This document shows, one piece after another, positions 1,586 to 37,388 of a stretch of 64,000 bases of DNA. This stretch comes from Deltaproteobacteria bacterium (GTDB lineage Bacteria; Desulfobacterota; Syntrophia; Syntrophales; JACQWR01), in contig JAPLJV010000044.1 in assembly GCA_026388415.1 (NCBI GenBank), forward strand, positions 62,001-126,000, in the 5' to 3' direction. The notes beneath the pieces were generated by a model, which was given only the letters and a program-made list of their open reading frames with translations, made no database searches and had not been told where the DNA came from. The position numbers were made by a program, and so were the translations under genes. Positions within the stretch are counted from its first letter, which is position 1; every line of letters begins with the position of its first letter.

Positions 1586-4500
1586 ATGAATAAACTGAAT
1601 GCCTACTTTCAAAGATTGACCGTGGTTCAGCGCGTGGCTGGCTTTGCCGCCATCTCCATTATCGCCGTCATGTTTGTCGGGCTGACAACATTTCCTGAAC
1701 TCAACAAGCTGGCGGCAATCAACCAGCGTTTCTACGAACATTCCCTTACTACGACCAATACCGTCAGGGATATGAAATTCACGCTTCTCTACATGCGGCG
1801 CGTGACGCGGGATGCCATCTTTGAAACCGATCCCGGTAAACGGGCTGAACAAATCGCCAGCCTGGAAACGTATCACCGCACGTTTTTCGATCAAACTGCC
1901 ATCCTCCGCAAATCGTTTCTCGGGGAGCAGCAACTGGTTTCCGATGCGGAAACACAGTATCGAAACCTGGTTGCCTATACCAACGAGTCGCTGGCGATAC
2001 TCAAAGCCGGCAAGCAAGACGAAGCCTGGAAAAGATGCATTGACCGCACCCCCGGCAATCCGGGCCCGCTGGTTGCGGAAAAGCTCGATCAGATGCTCAC
2101 GGAAGCTTCTGGAAGGGCGGCGAAGATGAACCAGGAGGCGAAAGATATCTACCAGAGCCAGGCGCGTGAGGCCATCTATGAGCTGGTGTTTGGTTTTTTG
2201 CTGCTTCTTGGCGCGGCATTCCTGTTCACGCGCTCCATTACCCGTCCACTCGGCGCGCTGCGCGGCAGCATCGTTGCGTTATCGGAAGGAAAACTGGCAG
2301 AGGTCATTCCCTTTCAAGACCAGAAAAATGAGATGGGTGAGATCAGTAGGGGGGTGGTGGTTTTACAGGATGTTTATCGCAAGATGGAAGCACAGGGCTG
2401 GGTCAAAACCCATGTCGGTGAAATCTCTACCAAGCTGCAGCAAGCCGGAACTTTTGTCGATCTAGCACAATCTTTTTTATCCTGCATTGCCCCGTTGGTC
2501 AGCGCCGGACATGCAGTAGTCTATATTCTCGACAAGGAGGACAACCGCCTACGCCTGATGGCCAGTTACGGCTATCGCGAACGCAAGCAGCTCAACCAGT
2601 CCTTCGGCATTGGCGAAGGCCTGGTTGGCCAGTGCGCTTTCGAAAAAGCGCCGATCACCCTGACCAACCCGCCGGAAGACTACGTGCGTATCGGGTCGGG
2701 GCTGGGTGAACTGACACCGAGATGCATTGCGGTGCTGCCGATTTTGCACACCGACAAAGTACTCGGCGTATTCGAGATCGCTTCATTCCAGTTCTTTGAT
2801 GACAAGTCAATGGCGCTGTTGGAGCAGATCATGCCCATATTGGCCGCAAACCTGGAAATACTCGGACAGAGCCTCCAGACTCAGCGCCTGCTGGAAGAAT
2901 CCCGGGAACAGGCAAAACGCATGGAAATGCAGGCTGCCCAGTTGGAAGAGCAGTCCGTGGAAATGGCCGCTCAGCAAAATGAACTCATGCAGACGGAAGC
3001 CCTGACCCGCCAAGCCGAGGAGCGGAGCCGGCTGATTCTCAACTCCGTAAGCGACGGGCTCTTTGGCCTTGGCATGGATGGCAAAATATCCTTCGTCAAT
3101 CCGGCGACGTGTGCACTTCTTGGATATACGGAGGAAGAACTCATCGGCAAGCTGATGCATGCCCAGGTTCACTACGCCTATCACGACGGCTCGGAGTTTC
3201 CGCGGCTGCAGTGCCCTATGTACCTTTCTTCCCAGGACGGCATAGCCCGTACGGTGGACACGGAGGTTCTCTGGCGCAAGGACGGCAAGCCGATTCCCGT
3301 GGAATATACCACAACACCAGTCTGGAAAGACGGCCAGGTGGCCGGGACGGTCGTTTCGTGCCGCGACATTACAGAACGCAAGGAAGTTGAAACGGCGATG
3401 CGGGCAGCCAAGGAACTTGCCGAGGCCGCCTCCCAGACCAAAGCGGACTTTCTGGCGAATATGAGCCATGAGATCCGGACACCCATGAACGCCATCGTCG
3501 GGTTCTCAGGTTTGGCTATGAAGACGGATCTTGATAAAAAGCAGCGTGACTACATCCGCAAGATCCAGCAATCAGGTACACATCTTTTGGGAATCATCAA
3601 CGACATCCTCGATTTCTCCAAAATAGAGGCAGGCAAGCTCTCGGTGGAGCAAACGGATTTTGAGCTGGAGAAGATGCTGGAGAATGTCTCCAACCTTATT
3701 TCCGAGAAAGCGACCAACAAAGGGCTGGAGCTGGTATTCGACATTCAGAAGGGAACTCCCAATTATCTCGTTGGCGACCCGCTGCGGCTCGGACAGATCA
3801 TGGTCAATTACTCCAATAATGCCGTCAAGTTCACCGAGCAGGGTGAAATTGTCGTCGGCGTCCGAGTCGAAGAGGAAACCAACGAAAATGTGCTGATGCG
3901 CTTTTCCGTCCGAGATACGGGCATCGGCCTCACGGAGGAGCAGATCGGCAATCTGTTCCAGTCTTTCCAGCAGGCCGACATGTCCACATCGCGGAAGTAC
4001 GGCGGCACGGGACTGGGGCTGGCCATCTCCAAAAAACTGGCCAACCTCATGGGCGGCGATGTGGTGGTCGAAAGCGAGTACGGCAAGGGAAGCACCTTCT
4101 GGTTTACCGCCCGTTTGGGCAAAGGCGTTGGCAAGGCAAGAACATTCCTGCCCGACCCCGATCTGAGGGGACGGCGGCTGCTGGTGGTGGACGACAACGA
4201 GATGAACCGCATCGTCCTTTCCGAGATGCTGACAGGCATGACCTTTACCGTGAGGGATGTCGCCTCCGGCAAGGCGGCGCTGGAGGAGATCCGCTCAGCC
4301 GCTGACGCGGGCCAGCCTTACGATGTCATCCTGCTCGACTGGCAGATGCCCGGCATGGACGGGATCGAAACGGCAAAAGCGATTCGAGCGTTACCCGTTT
4401 CTCCGCTTCCGCACATGGTCATGGTAACGGCCTACGGCCGCGAGGAGATATTGAAGGAGGCGGCCCTGGCGGGGCTCGAGGATGTGCTGATAAAACCGGT

Positions 4501-5656
4501 CGGCGCTTCGACGATGTTCGACACCATGGTCCAGGTTCTCGGCGGAAAGCGTGATGAAACCCAGGATGAGGATCAGCAGGCGACGCCGCTGGCACAAGAC
4601 CTCAACACGATCAAGGGCTCTTCGATCCTTCTGGTGGAGGACAACGAGTTCAACCAGCAGATCGCCAGTGAACTGCTCGCCGATGCGGGATTCAAGGTGG
4701 ATATCGCCGCAGATGGTCAGAAGTCCATCGAGATGCTCAATAAACATCTCTATGACATTGTGCTCATGGATATGCAGATGCCCGTTATGGATGGTGTGAC
4801 GGCCACTATTGAAATTCGTAAAAATGACCGCTTCAAGGATCTGCCGATTTTAGCCATGACGGCAAACGTTATGGAGGCGGATGTGGAAAGATGCCGGAAA
4901 GCGGGCATGCAGGACCATATCGGTAAGCCGATCGATCCCGATGAGCTATTCGGCAAATTATTGAAGTGGGTGAAGCCGCGCCAGAGCGAAGAGGTGCAGG
5001 AAACGGCCGCACCGCCACCAACGGAAGCAACAAAGGAAGAGCTAAAACCGACCCGGCAGGACGACCTGCCCGAGATTCCGGGGCTCGACACCAAGCTCGG
5101 ATTGAAACGGGTGATGGGCAAGAAGACCTTTTATGTTGACATGCTGAAAAAATATATCGAAAACCAGGGGCAGGCCCCTGTGCAGATCCTCCAAAGCCTG
5201 GATGCTGATGATTACGCGACGGCGGAGCGTCAGGCCCACACTGCCAAAGGGGTCAGCGGGAACATCGGCGCTACGGGGCTCCAGGGAATGGCAGCCGCCC
5301 TCGAGAAAGCTATCCGCGAGAAATCGCCTCGCGAGGAAATCGGGGCACTGCTGGCAACGTTCGGAGCGGCCCACGGCAAACTCATTGCCGGCCTGACGGA
5401 GGCTTTTCCGTCGGCAGTGGCTATGGAAGAGACGGCTACAGCGATCGATGAGGCAAAGGCAAAAGAGGTTTGCGAAAAAATGCGGGAGTTCCTAACCAAC
5501 GATGACGCCGAGGCGGTGGACTATATCGAGGCGGAAAAGAACGCTCTGCGCTACATTATGGGGACAGATCACTTCGGCCCCTTCGCGCAGGCCATTGGGC
5601 AGTATGATTTTTCCCAAGCCCTGGAGTTATTAAAATCGCGGGTAGAACGCGCATGA
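1586..5656 (+). CDS. Hybrid histidine kinase, 4HB-HAMP-GAF-PAS-HisKA-HATPase-REC-REC-HPt
   Basis: This inner-membrane hybrid sensor kinase of 1356 residues contains a full internal phosphorelay. ATG 1586 is preceded by GGGAG at correct spacing; the open frame extends further upstream but overlaps the previous gene. Order: membrane helix at about 18-40, four-helix sensor region, second helix at about 203-222, HAMP, GAF (297-430), coiled coil, PAS (485-605), HisKA with phospho-acceptor His628 in [10 protein letters not shown], HATPase with N-box [10 protein letters not shown] and a GTGLGLAI G-box, two receiver domains ([11 protein letters not shown] near 918 and [11 protein letters not shown] near 1062), and an HPt domain with His1218 in AHTAKG. 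The two receivers suggest a branched relay. Its C-terminal half is nearly duplicated in the kinase at 8838. Confidence 0.95.
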
Positions 5657-11700: not shown

Positions 11701-12804
11701 TCATTCGGTACTTACCGCGAAAACTTCAACGGGCTCGGCAATGTTCTTAAACGTCATGAAACCTTTAGAAGTAAAGGTTGCCGTCAGGAATTCGTCATCC
11801 ACTTGCAGGGCCAAGGCATGGCGCTTCATCTGTTCCTGGGATGCCTGGATGGTCAAGATTTCCCCGCCCGCAGCGGCACTGCACAAGCGAGAGGCAAGAT
11901 TGACCAGATGACCGAGCGCGGTATACTCCATCCGGTTTGCTGTGCCGATATTGCCCACCACGACTTCCCCGGTGGCCACCCCGATGCCGATGGCTCCCAC
12001 CGGTTGGTTGGCCGCTTGCCTGCTTTCCATCCAGGCCTGATGAATTTTCTGCATCGAGGCTGCCGCGCTGAGGGCTTGCCAGGCATGGGTTTCATTGCGC
12101 AAGGGCGCGCCGAAGATAGCCATCAGGCCGTCGCCGAGAAACTTGTCCACCATGCCATCCATTTCTTCCACGTATTTTACCATGTTACTGAGGAAGGAAT
12201 TCACTGTTTCCTGGACTTCTTCGGGCGAAAGCCGGTTCCCCAGCGCCGTGAAACCGCGCACGTCCACGAAGAGGATACTTACCTCCCGCTTGTCCATTTT
12301 CAGAAATTCATCTATCGGTGTTTCCTTGAGCTGATCAATGACCTTCGACGAAACATAGCGGGAAAAAGCATTCTCCAGAAATTTATTTTTCTCCTGCAAA
12401 TATGCCCTGGCGCTCTGCAGCATAAGGTGGTTCTTTACCCGCGCCAGCACGATGGGGGGGCTGATCGGCTTGGTGATATAGTCTACCGCGCCCAGTTCCA
12501 ATCCCATTTGCTCATCCTCGACCTCGGCCTTCGCCGTCAGGAAAATAACGGGGATGTCACTGGTGGTGCTGTTTTCCTTGAGACGACGGCATACCTCATA
12601 TCCATCAATCCCCGGCATCATGACATCGAGCAGAATCAGATCAGGAGGTTCAGTGGACATGGCAATCTGTAAGGCCTTTTCGCCATTCAGGGCAACTTTC
12701 GTTTTGTAGAGCTCCTTGAGCAACGAACCCATCAATGCCAGATTATCCGGTGCGTCATCGACGATCAGAATGGTTTGCTTTTTTTGCTCAACAGTGGCTG
12801 CCAT
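11701..12804 (-). CDS. Response regulator with class III adenylate/guanylate cyclase domain
   Basis: This 367-residue protein has an N-terminal receiver (phospho-acceptor Asp60 in LLDVMMPGIDG), a helical linker (about 125-170) and a class III nucleotidyl cyclase domain (about 172-360). Metal-binding aspartates are visible in FVDVRGFT and FLGDGLMAIFG, and the purine-side lysine is in DKFLGDG. The position that is often Asp in adenylate cyclases (GDxVNxAxR) is His here (GHLVNLASR), so substrate choice is not certain. Output would be cAMP or cGMP controlled by phosphorylation. A cyclic-nucleotide-binding fusion at 34868 could respond to such a signal, though that link is speculative. Confidence 0.9.
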   Translation of the reverse strand: MAATVEQKKQTILIVDDAPDNLALMGSLLKELYKTKVALNGEKALQIAMSTEPPDLILLDVMMPGIDGYEVCRRLKENSTTSDIPVIFLTAKAEVEDEQMGLELGAVDYITKPISPPIVLARVKNHLMLQSARAYLQEKNKFLENAFSRYVSSKVIDQLKETPIDEFLKMDKREVSILFVDVRGFTALGNRLSPEEVQETVNSFLSNMVKYVEEMDGMVDKFLGDGLMAIFGAPLRNETHAWQALSAAASMQKIHQAWMESRQAANQPVGAIGIGVATGEVVVGNIGTANRMEYTALGHLVNLASRLCSAAAGGEILTIQASQEQMKRHALALQVDDEFLTATFTSKGFMTFKNIAEPVEVFAVSTE

Positions 12805-22097: not shown

Positions 22098-25000
22098 ATG
22101 TGGCGACGTGCAATCAGGATTGTATTGAGCCTGCCGTTCCTTATTGTAACAGGATTGTTCTCTATCTATCTGGTGTTCGGCTTTTTTCTGATCAACCCGC
22201 TGGCTCAAAAGCTATTGCCCTGGGTGGCCGAAACAAAACTTGCCAGCAGGTTGAGCGTGCAGCAAGTTAAATTCAATCCTATCACACTTGAAACTACCGT
22301 GGATGGCTTGAAACTGACCGAGCCAAACGGTAAGTTCCTCGCCGGTTTTGAGCAGCTCTACCTCAACATCGGTGTCACGGGACTGCTCCGCTTGGCTTGG
22401 CGTATTCAGGATATTCAAATCAAGAGCCCGCGTGCGCTGTTGGCGGTGCAACCTGATGGCAAGTTCAATTGGGCTGCGCTGATCACCAATCTGAATAAAG
22501 ACAAAAAGCCACCGTCGGGGACCGTGGCAAGAGTGCTGATCGATCACATCAAAATTGACGACGGTAAGGTCGAGTACACCGACGCCAACCGTGCAGGCCG
22601 TCCGTTCAAAGCTGTGTTGCAGCCGCTCGGGATTGAGTTCGATGGCTTGTCCACGTTGCCCGGCGATCACGGCAATTACAGAATTGTTGCCAAATTGCCT
22701 GAGCAGGGCGCTAAGCTTAAATTGAAGGGTGATATAGGGTTGAACCCGCTATCGACCAAGGGCGAAATCGCTCTGGATGGCATGCGGCTGGCCGATTTGC
22801 AGTATTTGTTCAAGAATCCGCGCAAATTCGAACTTTTGTCCGGCACGCTGACTGCGGATTTACGTTACCGCTTCGCCATGGTACACAACAAGACGGGAGC
22901 GGACGCGCCTTCGGTGCAGGTCAACGATGCAAATCTCAGCTTAAAGAATTTCGTACTGGCTCCGCGCCGTGGTGGTTCGCCTGTGCTCGAACTTACCGAG
23001 TTGCAGATCGGCAATGCGAACATAGATCTGGCGCAGTGCCGTGTCGAAGTAGCGACCGTGAACCTGATTGGTGGCAAACTGGCGGCAACCCGCAATGTTA
23101 AGGGCACTCTGGATTGGCAAACGATGTTTGCCGCAGACAAGGAGAAAACAGCGCCGACATCCTTTGTACAATCTCCGCCTGAAGCAAGCGCACCAGCGCA
23201 GCCCTGGAAAATCGCAGTACATGCAATCAAGCTGGCTGACTGGGCGGCGCGCTTTACCGACCAGGGGTTTGCCAAACCGCTCATCGTGAGCGCAAATGGC
23301 CTTGGGATGACCGCAGCGCTGACGGGTGAAGTTGGTGACAAGCAGGCAATCGAAGTCAGCCCGGTAAATGTATCCCTGGGGCTGGTACGGGTTATGTCGG
23401 GTGAGCAGAAAGTGGCTGCGCTGCAAAGCGCCGCACTGGTCAACGCGAAACTGAAGTTGGCGGAAAACCGGCTCGTTATCGACGCAGTGGAATTGCACGA
23501 CATAAGCACCGCGGTGATGCTGGACAAGAACAAAATCCTCAACTGGGCCGAGATAATGAAAGCTGCCCCGGACGTTCCAACACCAGCGCCGCAAAAGCAC
23601 GCAACGGTCAAGTCAGCCGCCGCGGACAAACCCGGCATGGCTGTCGAGCTTGCACGCTTCAGTCTGGACGGTCTCGAAATCAGAATCGTTGATCAGTCGA
23701 CCAACGCACCGGTCAAACTCGATGTCGCCAAGGGCTTTGTGACGATGAACAACCTGAGTCTCGATACGAACAAACCCGTGCCGATAGAAGCCGGTTTTAG
23801 CCTCAAACAAGGTGGAAATTTCAAAGCCCACGGCAATATCACCCCGGGCAATGCGTCGGGCAAACTCGACCTAACGCTCGTCGGTCTGTCGTTGAAACCC
23901 TTTACGTCTTATGTCAACCAGTTTGCCAAGCTCAATCTGCATTCGGGTGCGGCTTCTACACGCGGCAAGCTCATGTTTGTGCGAGCCGAAACGGGGATGA
24001 AAGTGGATTTTGGCGGTGGCTTTGCGGTAGACGACCTTGCCCTCACCAAAGAAGTATCAGGAGATCTTTTTTTCGGGTGGGAAAGGCTGTCCTCGGACAG
24101 CCTGGAGTTAAAACTGAGTCCAAATCGCCTGCACATGAACGAGTTGGTGGCGTCACATCCATTCAGTAAGGTCATTATTTTTGAAGACAAGGATATGAAC
24201 CTGAAGCGTATTTTGCGTAATTCAGAGACGGAGGGCGCTAAAACGGCAAAGGCAGAAATACCTGCGAAGACAGAGACACGCGAAGAAACTGCTGTCTTCC
24301 CGTTTGCTATAGAGCGTCTGCGTATAGTCAGTGCCAACGTCGCGTTTGCCGACCTCTCGCTGAAGCCACAGTTCGGCACGCTGATGCACGACCTCACCGG
24401 TGTGGTCACAGGCCTTTCCAATGATCCGGCGACGATGGCGTTGGTGGAACTTGACGGCAAGGTGGACGAATTTGGCTCAGCCCGCATTCGTGGCTCGGTC
24501 CAGCCATTCAGGGCGACCGATTTCACTGACTTGAAGCTCACCTTCCGAAATCTTGAAATGGCCAACATGACTCCGTACTCGGGGAAATTTGCCGGGCGGA
24601 GAGTCGAATCCGGCAAGCTTGCGGTCGATCTCGAATACAAGGTCAAGCAGCGCCAGTTGGCTGGCGATAACAAGATCGTGATCAACAAACTCAAACTCGG
24701 CGAGCGGGTCGACAGCCCGGAGGCGATAAACATACCGCTCGACCTGGCGATTGCGCTATTGGAAGATAGCGAAGGCATCATCGACCTGGATTTGCCAGTT
24801 TCGGGAAACCTCGATGACCCGCAGTTCAGCTACGGTAAGGTTATCTGGAAAGCTATCGTCAACGTGCTGACCAAACTCGTAACATCACCCTTCCGCGCGC
24901 TCGGCAGTTTGATGGGAATCAGTTCCGACAAGCTTGAAGCGGTGGAATTCGACTTCGGTGCAGCGACTCTATTGCCGCCCGAACAGGAGAAACTCAAGGA

Positions 25001-25505
25001 AATCGGCAAGACGCTCCTCAAACGGCCTGCGCTCACGCTGTCCATTGCCCCCGCCTATGCCTTGAAGAAGGATACCCGCGCGATCCAGGAATTTAGGATC
25101 CGACGCGATGTCGCACGAAGCATGGAGTTGAATGTCGAGCCTGATCACGACCCGGGGCCGGTCGACACCGCCAATCCTCGTGCGCAAAAAGCTCTGGAGA
25201 CTTTATATGGTGATCGTTTTGACAACCAGGGCGGGTTGAAGGTGATCAAGTCCGAATACGAAAAACCCAAAGATAGCGTGAAGACGATTCATGCCGACAT
25301 GCTGGAACGCCTGACCTTGCAGATTCCCGTAACAAACGTCGAATTGAAACAGCTGGCGCAGTCGCGCGGCAAAGCGGTGCAGCAGGCACTGATAACACTG
25401 GGTAAGATGGATACAGCCAAAATCAGCGTGGGCGAGCCTGTGAATAAAGACGATGACGGGAAGGTCGTAGTATGCAAGATAAGCCTGAGTACAGGCAACC
25501 ACTAA
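22098..25505 (+). CDS. DUF748 / AsmA-like envelope protein
   Basis: This very large protein of 1135 residues has one N-terminal membrane helix (about 8-33) followed by long repetitive beta-strand-rich sequence in the periplasm. The architecture and motifs such as [27 protein letters not shown] and the C-terminal [20 protein letters not shown] match DUF748 proteins of the AsmA/TamB-like group, which are proposed to bridge the inner and outer membranes for lipid movement. The C-terminal part (about 950-1135) contains [10 protein letters not shown], resembling an OmpA-like periplasmic tail. It is followed 20 bases later by the aquaporin gene. The exact role is not established. Confidence 0.85.
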
Positions 25506-33042: not shown

Positions 33043-34692
33043 CTATCTCGTCATGACCAACCGCTGCTCCTCCTTTGGAACATACCACTTGATAAAGTTA
33101 TGGCCGATGCCGAGAGGCGCCGGCTCTACTCCCCGGATGCGCGCATCAATGATCGGCAGGGCATCGGGGGCATAAAGAAAGGCGTACGGCTGCTCTTCAG
33201 CCAAAATCTCCTGGATCCGGTCGTAGCATTTTTTTCTGGCTTCCTGGTCGAAGGTGCTCCTTCCTTTCTCCAGCAACTCATCCACTTCTTTATTCTTGTA
33301 GGAGACGAAATTCAATTCTTCCGGGGCGGTTTTACTGGAATGCCAGACGTCGTAAATATCAGGGTCCAGCGGGATCGTCCACCCGAGCAGCGTGGCATCA
33401 AATTTACGCTTATTGATAAAATCATTGACAAAGGCCGCCCACTCGATAACGCGGATATTGACGATAATGCCGATCTCGGCGAGTCTCCGCTGGATGATTT
33501 CCGCACACTTGCTCCGCACATCATTGCCCTGATTGGTAATGATTTCAAAGGTAAAAGGCTGGCCATCCTTATCGAGGATACCATCGCCGTTGGTATCTTT
33601 CCAGCCGGCCTCGGCCAGCAGTTCCCTGGCGCGCTGCGGATCATAGGGATACTTTTTCACGCGGTCGTTTTGCGCCCATGTGCCCGGCTTGTATGGACCC
33701 GTTGCTACCTGCCCCAGACCCAGCAGAACACCCTGGATGATTTCCTCCCGGTTGATCATATGACTGATAGCCTGGCGCACTCTCTTATCGGCGAAAAGCG
33801 GTTTCTGCAGATTATAGCCGAGATAGGTGTAGGAAAAGGAAAGATAACGGTACTTGTTGAAGTTTTTCCTGAAGAGATTGTTCTCCGTCTGCCGCGTAAA
33901 CTGCAGGGGCGATAATCCCATCCGGTCAATGCCGCGGGCGCGCAGCTCCAGAAACATGGTGGCCATATCGGGGATGATGCGCAAGATGTAGCCGTCAATA
34001 TAGGGCCGCCCTTCAAAGTAGTCTGGATTGGCAGCCAGGACGATCTTCTGACCGGATACCCATTCCTTGAACATGTAGGGACCCGTGCCCACGGGATGAC
34101 GGGCCAGCTTGCTTTTGGCGATGTCTTTGCCTACCAGCAGGTGTCGGGGAAGAATGGCGCTGCTCCAGCTCATCAGGGCCGGTGCGAAGGGTTTATCGTA
34201 AGTGGCGCGGAAAGTGTGGGCATCCAGAATTTCGGCCTTTCTTACCTTTAGAAAATCGCCGGCATAAGCGGTCGGCGTCCTGGGATCAATGGTTGCCTGA
34301 TAGGTAAAGAGCACGTCGGCGGCGGTAAAGGGACGCCCGTCATGCCATTTGACGTCTTTTCTGAGATGAAAGGTGATCACCAATCCATCGCGGGAAATCT
34401 CCCATGCTGACGCCAGATCACCGACAATATGCAGGTCTTTGTCGTATTTTACGAGACCGTTATAAACCATCCCGGCAATACCGTGCGATGTACTGTCGGA
34501 GGCCAGGAGGGGGATGAGATTGCTGGCATCGCCGATGGAGCCCTCCACCATAATGTCGCCGTAGGCGGGGCCGGTATCGGATCGCTTCCTGATGCTATCC
34601 TCGCCCTGGTGGCAGCTTAAGAGAATCAGACCGAACAAGGCAATAACCAGGGGGCCAACAATTATAACTGCTGCTCTTATGACAGGCTTCAT
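33043..34692 (-). CDS. Peptide/solute ABC transporter substrate-binding lipoprotein (SBP family 5)
   Basis: This 549-residue family-5 binding protein of the OppA/DppA/NikA type begins with a lipoprotein signal, MKPVIRAAVIIVG onward to LILLSC, with lipidation at that Cys. Conserved parts include LASAWEISRDGLVITFHLRKD, WHDGRPFTAADVLFTY and the RQAISHMINREEI segment. It binds peptides or related ligands outside the inner membrane. No permease or ATPase genes are adjacent, so it is an orphan here. The longer frame from 34773 would bury the signal peptide and is rejected; the ribosome binding site of the chosen start is weak. Confidence 0.9.
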   Translation of the reverse strand: MKPVIRAAVIIVGPLVIALFGLILLSCHQGEDSIRKRSDTGPAYGDIMVEGSIGDASNLIPLLASDSTSHGIAGMVYNGLVKYDKDLHIVGDLASAWEISRDGLVITFHLRKDVKWHDGRPFTAADVLFTYQATIDPRTPTAYAGDFLKVRKAEILDAHTFRATYDKPFAPALMSWSSAILPRHLLVGKDIAKSKLARHPVGTGPYMFKEWVSGQKIVLAANPDYFEGRPYIDGYILRIIPDMATMFLELRARGIDRMGLSPLQFTRQTENNLFRKNFNKYRYLSFSYTYLGYNLQKPLFADKRVRQAISHMINREEIIQGVLLGLGQVATGPYKPGTWAQNDRVKKYPYDPQRARELLAEAGWKDTNGDGILDKDGQPFTFEIITNQGNDVRSKCAEIIQRRLAEIGIIVNIRVIEWAAFVNDFINKRKFDATLLGWTIPLDPDIYDVWHSSKTAPEELNFVSYKNKEVDELLEKGRSTFDQEARKKCYDRIQEILAEEQPYAFLYAPDALPIIDARIRGVEPAPLGIGHNFIKWYVPKEEQRLVMTR

Positions 34693-34739
34693 GCGGGGGA
34701 CTTTAGCCAATAGTTGCTGTTTATGCAATGAAATTCTGA

Positions 34740-34784
34740 AATTCCCCTGATTCCTTGACGTCAGGAAGGCCAAGGGAATTTTTT
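34740..34784 (+). terminator. Terminator-like hairpin in the divergent region
   Basis: AATTCCC (34740-34746) pairs with GGGAATT (34774-34780). An inner TTCCT/AGGAA stem-loop lies inside, and TTTTTT follows. It has the form of an intrinsic terminator on the plus strand, though no plus-strand gene ends here. It sits about 50 bases upstream of the lipoprotein start. Confidence 0.45.
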
Positions 34785-34797
34785 ATGTTTTGCACTG

Positions 34798-34827
34798 CTT
34801 GACACGGTCAAGGGGTAATGGTAAAAA
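34798..34827 (+). promoter_or_regulatory. Candidate promoter with overlapping palindrome, upstream of the YihY fusion
   Basis: TTGACA (34799-34804), a 17-base spacer and TAAAAA (34822-34827) form a plausible promoter. The perfect inverted repeat CTTGAC-ACG-GTCAAG (34798-34812) overlaps the -35 and may be an operator. Confidence 0.45.
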
Positions 34828-34867
34828 AATCCTCCAATGAGACAAAAGGACGGGATGCAAAAATTTC

Positions 34868-36406
34868 ATGATAGATGAATATCAAGATAAACTGGCGGCC
34901 GCGTACAAAAAATATATTCGCATGGGTGCGGCCGGTGTCTGGGAGATCCTGCGCGACGCTTACCGGAATTATACCCGCAACAGTGAGGTGAATCAGGCCG
35001 CCGCCATTGCCTTCTATGCCATCCTGTCCCTCATCCCGATGTTCCTGCTTACGCTTCTTGCGGCCGGCTACTTTTTCAGCGCTCACCCGCTAATTCAAAA
35101 GGACATCGCCGCCAATATCAGGGCTATCCACCCCTTTTTTTCTGATGAATTACTTAATAATATTGTGAAATTAAAAGAAGGTCACCGTATCGTCGGGTGG
35201 ATAGGAATTGTCAGTTTGCTCTGGCTTTCCGCCATGATCTTTGAGGCCCTGGAAAAAGCCTTGAATATTATCTTCCGGGCCAAGACCTTGCGAAACTTCG
35301 TTCAATCCAAACTCCTGGCCCTGGCCATGATCCCGTTAGGCTGGTTAGTCAGTATCACCAGCGTAGGAATTACCTATATCGCGACGGTCATGTGGAAGCA
35401 GTCACCATTGGTAAAAAGTAGTTTTTTATCATATTGTTACACTCTAATCCCCCGCCACCTGATACCCTATCTCCTGACCGTAGCGTTTGTAAGCCTCTTG
35501 TACCGTCTCATACCGAAGACGCGGATCTCATTGCGCGGCGCCATCGGCGGCGCCGTGATCTTTGCCACCCTGCTGGAAGCGGCCAAGTATTTTTTTGCCT
35601 GGTACATAGCCAACTACACCCACTATGATGTAATTTTCGGCTCCATGGAGGCAGTTGTGCTGCTGGTCATTTGGGTATTTTATGTGGCCATGATGCTGCT
35701 TTTTTGCGCGGAAATCATCTCTTCCTATGAGAGGAGGGATTTAATCCTGCTGGAACAGGCCTTATTGATGCAAAAAAGTAAGGTGCTAAAGAGCGAAGAG
35801 AGATTATTCCGCAAATTTGGACGTATATACGAGCCTGGTGAATATCTTTTTAAGGAAGGCGATACGGGACGGGACATGTTTTATGTTCTGGATGGCGAGG
35901 TTCGGGTGGAAAAGCAGGCCGGCCAAGTCACCAGAACCCTGGCTTCGATCAGCGCCGGAGCATATCTGGGAGAAATGGCGGCCCTGATTGATGTGACGCG
36001 CACTGCCTCGGCCTACGCCCTGAAAAAGAGTTACGTGGCCGTTATCGGCGGCGATATTTTTCGCGATCTGCTGCGAGAAAGCGAGGCCGTCTCTCTTTTC
36101 ATGCTCCAGGAGTTTTCCCGCCGCATCAAGCACACCAACGACGATCTGGAACGTGTTACCCAAGCCTGGATAAAACTACTGATCGTCCTTTATTTCCTGA
36201 AGGAATGGCCTCTGACCAAAGGAAGAGACCCCCGGCAGGAGGTAATGCGCCTGACCGAAAAGACCTTTGGAGAAATTGATGAAATATTTTCCTGTCTAAG
36301 CGAGGAAGGCATTTTACTTGTCCGTGATGGTCGTGTTATCAGCTTCCACAAAGAGCGAGTTGGGGATGTTCTGCAGGTCGGGATGGCGTGTAAAACCGGC
36401 ATGTAA
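34868..36406 (+). CDS. YihY/BrkB-type membrane protein fused to cNMP-binding and winged-helix domains
   Basis: Residues 1-290 of this 512-residue protein form a YihY/BrkB membrane domain with six helices (motifs NQAAAIAFYAILSLIPM and NYTHYDVIFGSMEAVVLLV). Residues about 310-430 form a cyclic-nucleotide-binding domain with the phosphate-binding cassette GAYLGEMAALIDVTRTAS. The last 80 residues (LTEKTFGEIDEIFSCLSEEG, then RDGRVISF) look like a degraded CRP-type winged helix. The membrane part was once called ribonuclease BN, but that activity is not supported. The cassette keeps the Glu and Arg that bind cyclic nucleotide. It may be a cAMP/cGMP-gated membrane protein (inference). Confidence 0.85.
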   Translation: MIDEYQDKLAAAYKKYIRMGAAGVWEILRDAYRNYTRNSEVNQAAAIAFYAILSLIPMFLLTLLAAGYFFSAHPLIQKDIAANIRAIHPFFSDELLNNIVKLKEGHRIVGWIGIVSLLWLSAMIFEALEKALNIIFRAKTLRNFVQSKLLALAMIPLGWLVSITSVGITYIATVMWKQSPLVKSSFLSYCYTLIPRHLIPYLLTVAFVSLLYRLIPKTRISLRGAIGGAVIFATLLEAAKYFFAWYIANYTHYDVIFGSMEAVVLLVIWVFYVAMMLLFCAEIISSYERRDLILLEQALLMQKSKVLKSEERLFRKFGRIYEPGEYLFKEGDTGRDMFYVLDGEVRVEKQAGQVTRTLASISAGAYLGEMAALIDVTRTASAYALKKSYVAVIGGDIFRDLLRESEAVSLFMLQEFSRRIKHTNDDLERVTQAWIKLLIVLYFLKEWPLTKGRDPRQEVMRLTEKTFGEIDEIFSCLSEEGILLVRDGRVISFHKERVGDVLQVGMACKTGM

Positions 36407-36446
36407 AAATGCCAATTAAAAACTGATAGACAAGTGTGAGGCGAAG

Positions 36447-37388
36447 ATGAATAAACTGCTGCAGAACAAGCGGCTCCTTACGGGCGTTATGGCTGGCATC
36501 GGCATCGGTATTATCATATTTTACACCTTCTGTGTAGACTCCTGCCGTTACCTGCAAGGCGCCATCTGGGGGCTGGATCTCAAATATCTGGGCATTGTTT
36601 TCATGGCGGCGGTGATTCTGCTGACAGCACTGAAAAAGGACAGCCTTTGCCTGGCCCTGATCTCCATGGGGATCGGCGGAGAAGCTTTTCTGATTGGCTA
36701 TCAGATGAAAAATAGCACCTATTGTCCCTTTTGCCTGGCCTTCGGTATCCTTTTGATACTGATTTTCGTTGTAAACTTTCAGAAAAAGCAAATCCCGCTC
36801 ATAACCATCATGGCGATTCTTGGCCTGCTTTTCCTGTTCTTGGCCTTTAAGGGGTCTTCCACGCCCGCCTTTGCCGATGAGAACTTTATCACTTCCTTCG
36901 GCTCCGGCCGCGTTAATGTGCGCATTTATACGGACTATTTCTGCGCCCCTTGCCGCGCCGCCGAACCGGAAATCGAGGCGCTGCTGACCAAGCTGCTGGA
37001 AAAAAACACTATCCGCCTTACCTTAGTTGACACGCCCGTCCACAAGGAGACGCCCCTCTATGCCCGCTATTTTCTTTATATCCTGAATGAAAATAAGCGA
37101 TTTTTTGCCCAGGCCATGCTGGCGCGAGGCGCGTTATTTGAGGCAGCGGCACAAAACATTCTTACCGCCAAGGACCTGGAGGCCTTTCTGGCCAAAAGAA
37201 ATATAAAATTCAAACTCCTTGACGCGGCGCCCATTTTTAAGAACATGGAAAACTACATCAAGGAAGATAGCATTCACAGCACTCCCAGTTGCGTGATTTA
37301 TGGCCCCAAAGGCAAACAGGTGTCCGTGGGCAAGATCGGAATCATCAAGGGGCTGAAAGGCATCCTGGAGAATACCCCCCCTCGATAA
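36447..37388 (+). CDS. VKOR-thioredoxin fusion, disulfide-forming membrane protein
   Basis: This 313-residue fusion has an N-terminal vitamin K epoxide reductase-type membrane domain (four or five helices, about 10-135), with loop cysteines Cys29 and Cys33 and the redox pair CPFC (Cys93, Cys96). A periplasmic DsbA/thioredoxin-like domain (about 150-310) follows with the active site CAPC (Cys166, Cys169) and a STPSCVIYG cis-proline region. The natural fusion would pass electrons from substrate thiols to quinone, replacing DsbA plus DsbB. It is followed closely by the DUF4139 gene. Confidence 0.88.
   Translation: MNKLLQNKRLLTGVMAGIGIGIIIFYTFCVDSCRYLQGAIWGLDLKYLGIVFMAAVILLTALKKDSLCLALISMGIGGEAFLIGYQMKNSTYCPFCLAFGILLILIFVVNFQKKQIPLITIMAILGLLFLFLAFKGSSTPAFADENFITSFGSGRVNVRIYTDYFCAPCRAAEPEIEALLTKLLEKNTIRLTLVDTPVHKETPLYARYFLYILNENKRFFAQAMLARGALFEAAAQNILTAKDLEAFLAKRNIKFKLLDAAPIFKNMENYIKEDSIHSTPSCVIYGPKGKQVSVGKIGIIKGLKGILENTPPR

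Follow-up and report, generated by a model that had tools for sequence, protein, structure and literature searches.

The window analysed here, a stretch of DNA of 64,000 nucleotides, carries at 34868..36406 on the + strand a single open frame with an ATG start, which encodes a protein of 512 amino acids. Its N-terminal part is a BrkB/YihY membrane domain (residues 43-290; 34994..35737, +) according to the hydropathy of the alignment described below and to Pfam (PF03631, Virul_fac_BrkB; E 3.1e-41, 142 bits against a cut-off of 33.7). It is followed by a cyclic nucleotide-binding domain (CNB; residues 320-404; 35825..36079, +), recognized by the structural model, by Foldseek and by Pfam (PF00027, cNMP_binding; E 5.8e-18, 65 bits against a cut-off of 27.5). 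The rest of the tail consists, in the predicted structure, of a long C-helix (residues 406-446 in the model; 36083..36205, +) and a winged helix (residues 455-493; 36230..36346, +), whose recognition helix (residues 467-479; 36266-36304, +) is acidic according to the model and the alignment. The description of this gene in an earlier note on the same DNA, a YihY membrane domain fused to a CRP-like module, thus holds, since both Pfam matches exceed their cut-offs within one open frame.

This architecture recurs. Among 60 relatives, all from the same order, 27 encode the full-length fusion (40-55% identity), five a BrkB-CNB protein without the winged helix (G006, G021, G024, G049, and G058) and two the halves side by side as adjacent genes (G031 and G043); no BrkB-CNB pair was detected in the other 26 at the sensitivity used. 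A scan of genome contigs yielded 74 loci, mostly from records titled Syntrophaceae, Smithella, Syntrophus or unplaced Deltaproteobacteria, and two titled Holophagaceae (L074 and L095), which cluster together within the fused group of the tree presented below. The 60-row alignment used for most comparisons comprises the window protein and 59 of these 74 loci, 23 of them being sequences from the survey of 60 relatives; the loci dropped are near-duplicates, frames truncated at contig ends, L103 (split), L097 (broken) and L098 (tail-less). Other alignments comprise 26 of the 30 loci read, or subsets of 31 and 46 of the 60 rows. More BrkB-CNB pairs were found outside the order in a phylum sample of 395 genomes: among the stretches taken from it, L152-L157 are fused and lack the winged helix, and L150, L151 and L160 are split, the CNB frame of L160 beginning within the domain and being possibly damaged. 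In the split genes stop and start either overlap (ATGA in L031, TAATG in L103 and L161, which count as one case, their compared parts being identical) or are separated by 6 nt (L150 and L151). Of the 60 aligned proteins 59 have the winged helix, as has the split L031; it is absent from L099, L150-L151, L152-L159, L190 and L191; BrkB and CNB remain paired without it and in split genes. Other BrkB proteins of related genomes have no CNB, and a Smithella locus (L098) has kept BrkB but no tail, the next frame starting 76 nt further on the opposite strand. The BrkB-CNB pairing is therefore real and recurrent, as the search for recurrence proposed in the earlier note has established for 27 of 60 same-order relatives and the contig-scan loci, and we agree with that note in regarding a complete CRP tail on a membrane protein as unusual. 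An earlier description was not found in the literature searched: no publication turned up that pairs YihY, BrkB or 'ribonuclease BN' with a cyclic nucleotide-binding domain, subscription papers and database architecture lists lying outside the search, and the words 'BrkB' and 'ribonuclease' are absent from the main text of Kannan et al. (2007; PMC2246266).

Pfam finds PF03631 in all 60 aligned members, and TIGR00765 (YihY) is the NCBIfam model whose cut-off the fusion exceeds, the other nine rows of that scan remaining below theirs; the host genome contains one BrkB match. Hydropathy of the alignment reveals six hydrophobic segments in the BrkB domain, with cores at approximately residues 47-65, 108-126, 150-168, 193-211, 220-238 and 263-281, and these agree with the six membrane segments of the BrkB/YihY family and appear as helices in the models. 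Lysine and arginine are most frequent at the N end (mean 6.5), in residues 130-150 (4.4) and behind the last segment (6.0), and the long loop 72-106 carries 3.9, offset by 4.3 acidic residues. This charge pattern suggests that both the N and the C end of the BrkB domain lie in the cytosol, and because of the same distribution the fusion tail should be cytosolic.

The phosphate-binding cassette of the CNB, delimited by the alignment (GEMAALIDVTRTASA, residues 368-382; 35969..36013, +), reads GEMAALIDVTRTAS over residues 368-381. Gly368, Glu369 and Arg378 are invariant in the 60 aligned proteins, and position 380 is Ala in 56 of them. The CNB is also the best conserved segment, with a mean majority conservation of 0.72 across the 60 proteins, followed by BrkB (0.69), the C-helix (0.66) and the winged helix (0.49), the lowest of the folded parts. 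In the alignment to E. coli CRP, Glu369 corresponds to Glu72, Arg378 to Arg82, Thr379 to Ser83 and the C-helix pair Thr423-Asn424 to Thr127-Ser128 (conventional CRP numbering, one lower than the count of the alignment script, which includes the start Met). Thr or Ser occupies position 423 in 55 and Asn position 424 in 52 of the 60 proteins; in mycobacterial CRP the pair is likewise Thr-Asn. As regards the nucleotide pocket the tail thus agrees with the CRP/FNR family, having a CNB with the Glu and Arg of a cAMP-type cassette, and the proposal that the cassette keeps the cyclic-nucleotide contacts is supported by the invariance of Glu369 and Arg378. The cassette agrees with the canonical pattern for bacteria given by Kannan et al. 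(2007; PMC2246266), unlike the non-canonical cassettes of the FNR- and FixK-type families. The best PDB matches by sequence include cGMP- as well as cAMP-dependent kinases. The pocket residues, including the Thr423-Asn424 correspondence, favor rather than prove cAMP, which is probably the ligand of the tail.

Modeling with AlphaFold2 and the 60-row alignment resulted in a pLDDT of 81.3 and a pTM of 0.72. The CNB blocks reach a pLDDT of 86-96 and the winged-helix blocks 84-89, and the model is weak in the linker (62 at residues 301-310) and in parts of the membrane domain (57-68), where coupling would run. Behind the C-helix the chain is predicted to adopt the winged-helix topology of CRP/FNR proteins, with a close whole-tail superposition on 4ev0 only. 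All 50 of the Foldseek matches listed are of the CRP/FNR type; the best is 4ev0 (CAP; 218 columns, TMt 0.71, rmsd 5.0), and most of the others listed align the whole tail at an rmsd of 10 or more. Similarly, VIA-align superposes 200 residues on 4ev0 (Z 16.2, rmsd 4.3), and most other CRPs either over approximately 120-130 residues (CNB and C-helix) at 2-4 Å or over the whole tail at more than 10 Å. Judged from both sets of superpositions, each domain is CRP-like, but the position of the winged helix agrees well with one CAP structure and poorly with the others. The profile built from 31 tails aligns with GlxR and CRP across almost the full length and also matches the CNB of SthK. The BrkB part, modeled alone (pLDDT 74.8), gave no PDB match at E 0.001, a result without bearing on its function. 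The predicted topology, the superposition on 4ev0 and the profile alignment bear out the earlier impression that the C-terminal region resembles a winged helix, and structure prediction, proposed at the time as a check, returned a tail with a CRP fold.

The recognition helix was compared with 27 CRP-type helices from related genomes (27 of 30 loci, L142-L144 being dropped as partial or weak matches), controls which lean to canonical helices because they were chosen as the best HTH_Crp_2 matches. Position 472, which aligns to Arg185 of E. coli CRP, is Arg or Lys in 27 of 27 controls, whereas the 59 fusions have Glu (36), Asp (7), Lys (3) or other residues (13) there; at position 468, Glu is found in 24 controls (of 27) and 10 fusions (of 59). 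The net charge of residues 466-480 is +2.0 (1 to 3) in the controls (n=27) and -3.0 (-7 to 1) in the fusions (n=59), and the whole winged helix has a mean charge of +3.4 in the former versus -1.7 in the latter, with 4 of the 59 fusions at +6 to +11. Pfam matched no CRP-type helix-turn-helix in the fusion or among the families found in the 60 aligned members, one of which matches DprA_WH. The basic recognition helix with an Arg185-type contact, which marks the CRP/FNR family, is thus missing; the fusions seem to have lost the basic CRP contacts in favor of acidic residues and, with them, DNA reading.

In a tree of 57 BrkB domains, including 21 of the 60 alignment rows, the Syntrophales-type fused and split proteins form one group (25 rows, 100/100) with L098 and L099 inside, and next to it stand L169 and the split proteins of f59 (93/82). 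A separate group (8 rows, 100/100) consists of the fusions of f74, f30 and f6, which have no winged helix. BrkB-only proteins stand between the two groups, but the deep branches are weak (78/75) and long branches meet there, and a single common clade of BrkB-CNB pairs is not rejected (p-AU 0.06). CNB genes of other kinds were seen alongside. In L154 a second, CNB-only gene (4249-4761, -) lies immediately upstream of the BrkB-CNB fusion on the same strand. L162-L167 encode standalone CNB proteins of 218-227 amino acids, whose CNB is close to that of the fusion tail and whose C-terminal parts are not matched by the winged-helix profile of the fusion. L168 (2234-3417, -) consists of two adjacent CNB frames, and the same genome (G253) has a BrkB gene on a different contig.

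Upstream of the fusion gene lies a palindrome, CTTGAC-ACG-GTCAAG (34798-34812), which by eye spans a TTGACA hexamer. Of 70 upstream regions only the window's own carries the motif, against 0.12 expected in shuffles of the set; a CRP-like site (TGTGA-spacer-TCAC) occurs in none of the 70, and the promoter scan listed no + strand promoter in 34600-36600. Hence, of the palindrome once thought to overlap the promoter, the palindrome itself and its coverage of TTGACA are real, but no promoter is listed and the motif is not conserved. It was rejected as a conserved operator, and a role for it is unsupported because of its restriction to one upstream region and the empty promoter scan. The divergent neighbor at 33043..34692 (-) encodes, according to the domain scan, a solute-binding protein (SBP_bac_5), which is adjacent and divergent in 21 of the 62 relatives with more than 1.9 kb upstream and matched anywhere in 41 of the 74 loci. 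Ten neighbors from eight loci with pairs outside the Syntrophales-type fusion group encode NadA, a TRCF-type helicase, YebC, an enolase-superfamily enzyme, two ABC ATPases, a HAD hydrolase, Thy1, DNA ligase and one protein without a match. A conserved operon partner was consequently rejected, as no family beyond the ABC-type ATPases is shared among the ten.

A response regulator-class III cyclase of 367 amino acids (PF00211) is encoded at 11701..12804 (-) in the window and might be the maker of the ligand; it is one of nine PF00211 matches in the host genome. Class III cyclases were matched in 33 of the 34 relatives with a BrkB-CNB pair, G021 having the pair and no detected cyclase, versus 22 of the 26 others. 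This co-occurrence was discarded as proof and is weak evidence because cyclases are nearly universal. Four PF00027 matches were found in the host genome. Besides the fusion these are a SulP transporter with STAS and C-terminal CNB domains (L149; contig C34, 1390-3219, -), a 171-aa CNB gene (L148; contig C24, 1378-1893, -) located 16 nt after an Ion_trans_2/RCK channel gene (1909-3096, -), and a 125-aa CNB-only gene (L146; contig C61, 1396-1773, -) located 102 nt after a gene for a Gate-family (nucleoside recognition) membrane protein (1875-2822, -). The channel contains the filter motif TVGYGD, and the L148 pair is possibly a cyclic-nucleotide-controlled K+ channel with its sensor as a separate subunit. 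Since all four CNB proteins are fused to or encoded beside membrane proteins, the detected cyclic-nucleotide receptors of the host sit at membrane proteins. HTH_Crp_2 was not matched above its cut-off in the host genome (98.1% complete; sole match at E 8.7e-4, below the cut-off), in which a divergent CRP could escape detection, and it exceeded the cut-off in 28 of the 31 genomes of that search.

Like the YihY/BrkB family (PF03631, TIGR00765), the fusion has a six-helix membrane domain scoring above both curated cut-offs, but this domain continues into a whole CRP-like module. With the CRP/GlxR-type cAMP receptors (4ev0, 3i54, and 1g6n) it shares the CNB, the cassette Glu and Arg, the T/S-N pair of the C-helix and the winged-helix topology, whereas its membrane domain, its acidic recognition helix and the mostly Glu or Asp residues at the Arg185 position set it apart. 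The SthK-type cyclic-nucleotide-gated channels of bacteria and other CNB-bearing membrane proteins ('Channel_Bact' in Kannan et al. 2007; PMC2246266) likewise combine a membrane domain with a cytosolic CNB. However, Pfam assigns the membrane domain of the fusion and of the 60 aligned members to BrkB and to no ion-channel family, although it does recognize such a family in the L148 channel, and a winged helix follows the CNB. The 'ligand-gated channel or transporter' of the earlier note is the better half of its guess, but Pfam lends no support to a channel, and transport would be putative. The SulP-STAS-CNB protein of the host is also a transporter-family protein with a C-terminal CNB, but it has an unrelated membrane family, a STAS domain and no winged helix. 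Lastly, the BrkB part matches NCBIfam PRK04214 (ribonuclease BN/unknown domain fusion), but the fusion scores 82.4 bits against a cut-off of 500, and the best stretch stops at model position 272 of 412.

Substitutions in E. coli YhjD, a distant relative, reportedly give viability to Kdo-depleted cells, a result said to be that of Mamat et al. in 2008. The protein reportedly co-purifies with LptB, binds core-lipid A and acts in LPS transport (PMC3219608). Because of this relative, our best guess, weakly held, is that BrkB might handle an envelope lipid or LPS precursor; the analogy is a long one, as the match to the YhjD model TIGR00766 (30 bits) is far below the equivalog cut-off of 213.65.

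We propose, with a probability of roughly 55%, that a cyclic nucleotide, probably cAMP, controls the BrkB protein directly and that the CRP tail no longer reads DNA. The domains, their conservation, the predicted fold, the loss of the DNA-reading signature and the recurrence are documented here, and we infer the ligand, dimerization, coupling and substrate. The six-helix BrkB domain would reside in the inner membrane, its two ends lying on the cytosolic side, and the tail pocket would bind the nucleotide via Glu369 and Arg378. The C-helix would pair two tails and close over the base, and the change in the dimer could reach the last membrane helix by way of residues 290-317; the winged helix would be retained as a protein-protein or dimer-stabilizing piece.

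Of the competing explanations, a chance or assembly fusion of two genes is practically negligible: the same full-length frame at 40-55% identity is present in 27 of 60 same-order relatives, a recurrence that excludes an assembly artefact, and 59 proteins from named records could likewise be aligned, 23 of them shared with that survey. A membrane-tethered transcription factor, the DNA-binding sense of the 'membrane-tethered regulator' once suggested for this gene, would bind DNA with its nucleotide-bound tail and use BrkB as an anchor or as a sensor in the membrane. Such a protein would account for the CRP architecture kept, winged helix included, in 59 of 60 aligned members, for the four winged helices that are basic overall and for the palindrome upstream in the window's own genome alone. 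We nevertheless regard it as improbable, because the recognition helix is acidic where the controls have Arg or Lys: the Arg185 position is Asp or Glu in 43 of 59 fusions and basic in only three, the net charge is -3 instead of +2, the palindrome occurs in 1 of 70 upstream regions, and other BrkB-CNB pairs lack the winged helix while the CNB stays.

Less remote, but still unlikely, is a tail that senses the nucleotide and exerts its effect on a partner protein, BrkB being no more than a membrane anchor. The acidic winged helix could serve as a docking surface, and the natural gene splits demonstrate that the tail can be a protein of its own; yet BrkB is conserved nearly as well as the CNB and has many invariant membrane residues, and the ten neighbors from eight loci, sharing only ABC-type ATPases, show no common partner. 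Somewhat more room, though distinctly less than to direct control, should be given to a tail that is a dimerization or stability module and responds to no nucleotide at all, as the relative without any tail (L098) might indicate. Against it stand the Glu and Arg of the cassette, which all 60 aligned proteins share within the best conserved segment, and the contrast with the FNR- and FixK-type families, whose cassettes are non-canonical (Kannan et al. 2007; PMC2246266).

Direct control of BrkB by a nucleotide would matter because BrkB/YihY proteins occur widely, in 10 of 14 control genomes, and what they do is unsettled. A BrkB that naturally comes with its own ligand switch would provide a handle, as ligand, active state and locking mutants are testable on the purified protein. 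Moreover, the CRP module, the textbook cyclic-nucleotide DNA switch, is seemingly used here without DNA, in a host genome where cyclic nucleotides may act mainly on membrane proteins. Quite tentatively, one may imagine a CRP-type factor captured by an envelope lipid-handling protein and now acting as a post-translational, cAMP-driven clamp, in a host whose cyclic-nucleotide signaling would target membrane proteins instead of genes, and BrkB sensors that were perhaps gained twice.

Two other genes of the window may be mentioned. At 36447-37388 (+), a membrane protein with a YCPFC motif continues into a thioredoxin-like domain with CAPC (Thioredoxin_4), and the product looks like a VKOR-DsbA-type fusion, the VKOR part being judged by eye. 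Approximately 9 kb from the fusion, a DUF748/AsmA-family protein of 1135 amino acids is encoded at 22098-25505 (+); proteins of the AsmA family have been linked to the transport of envelope lipids.
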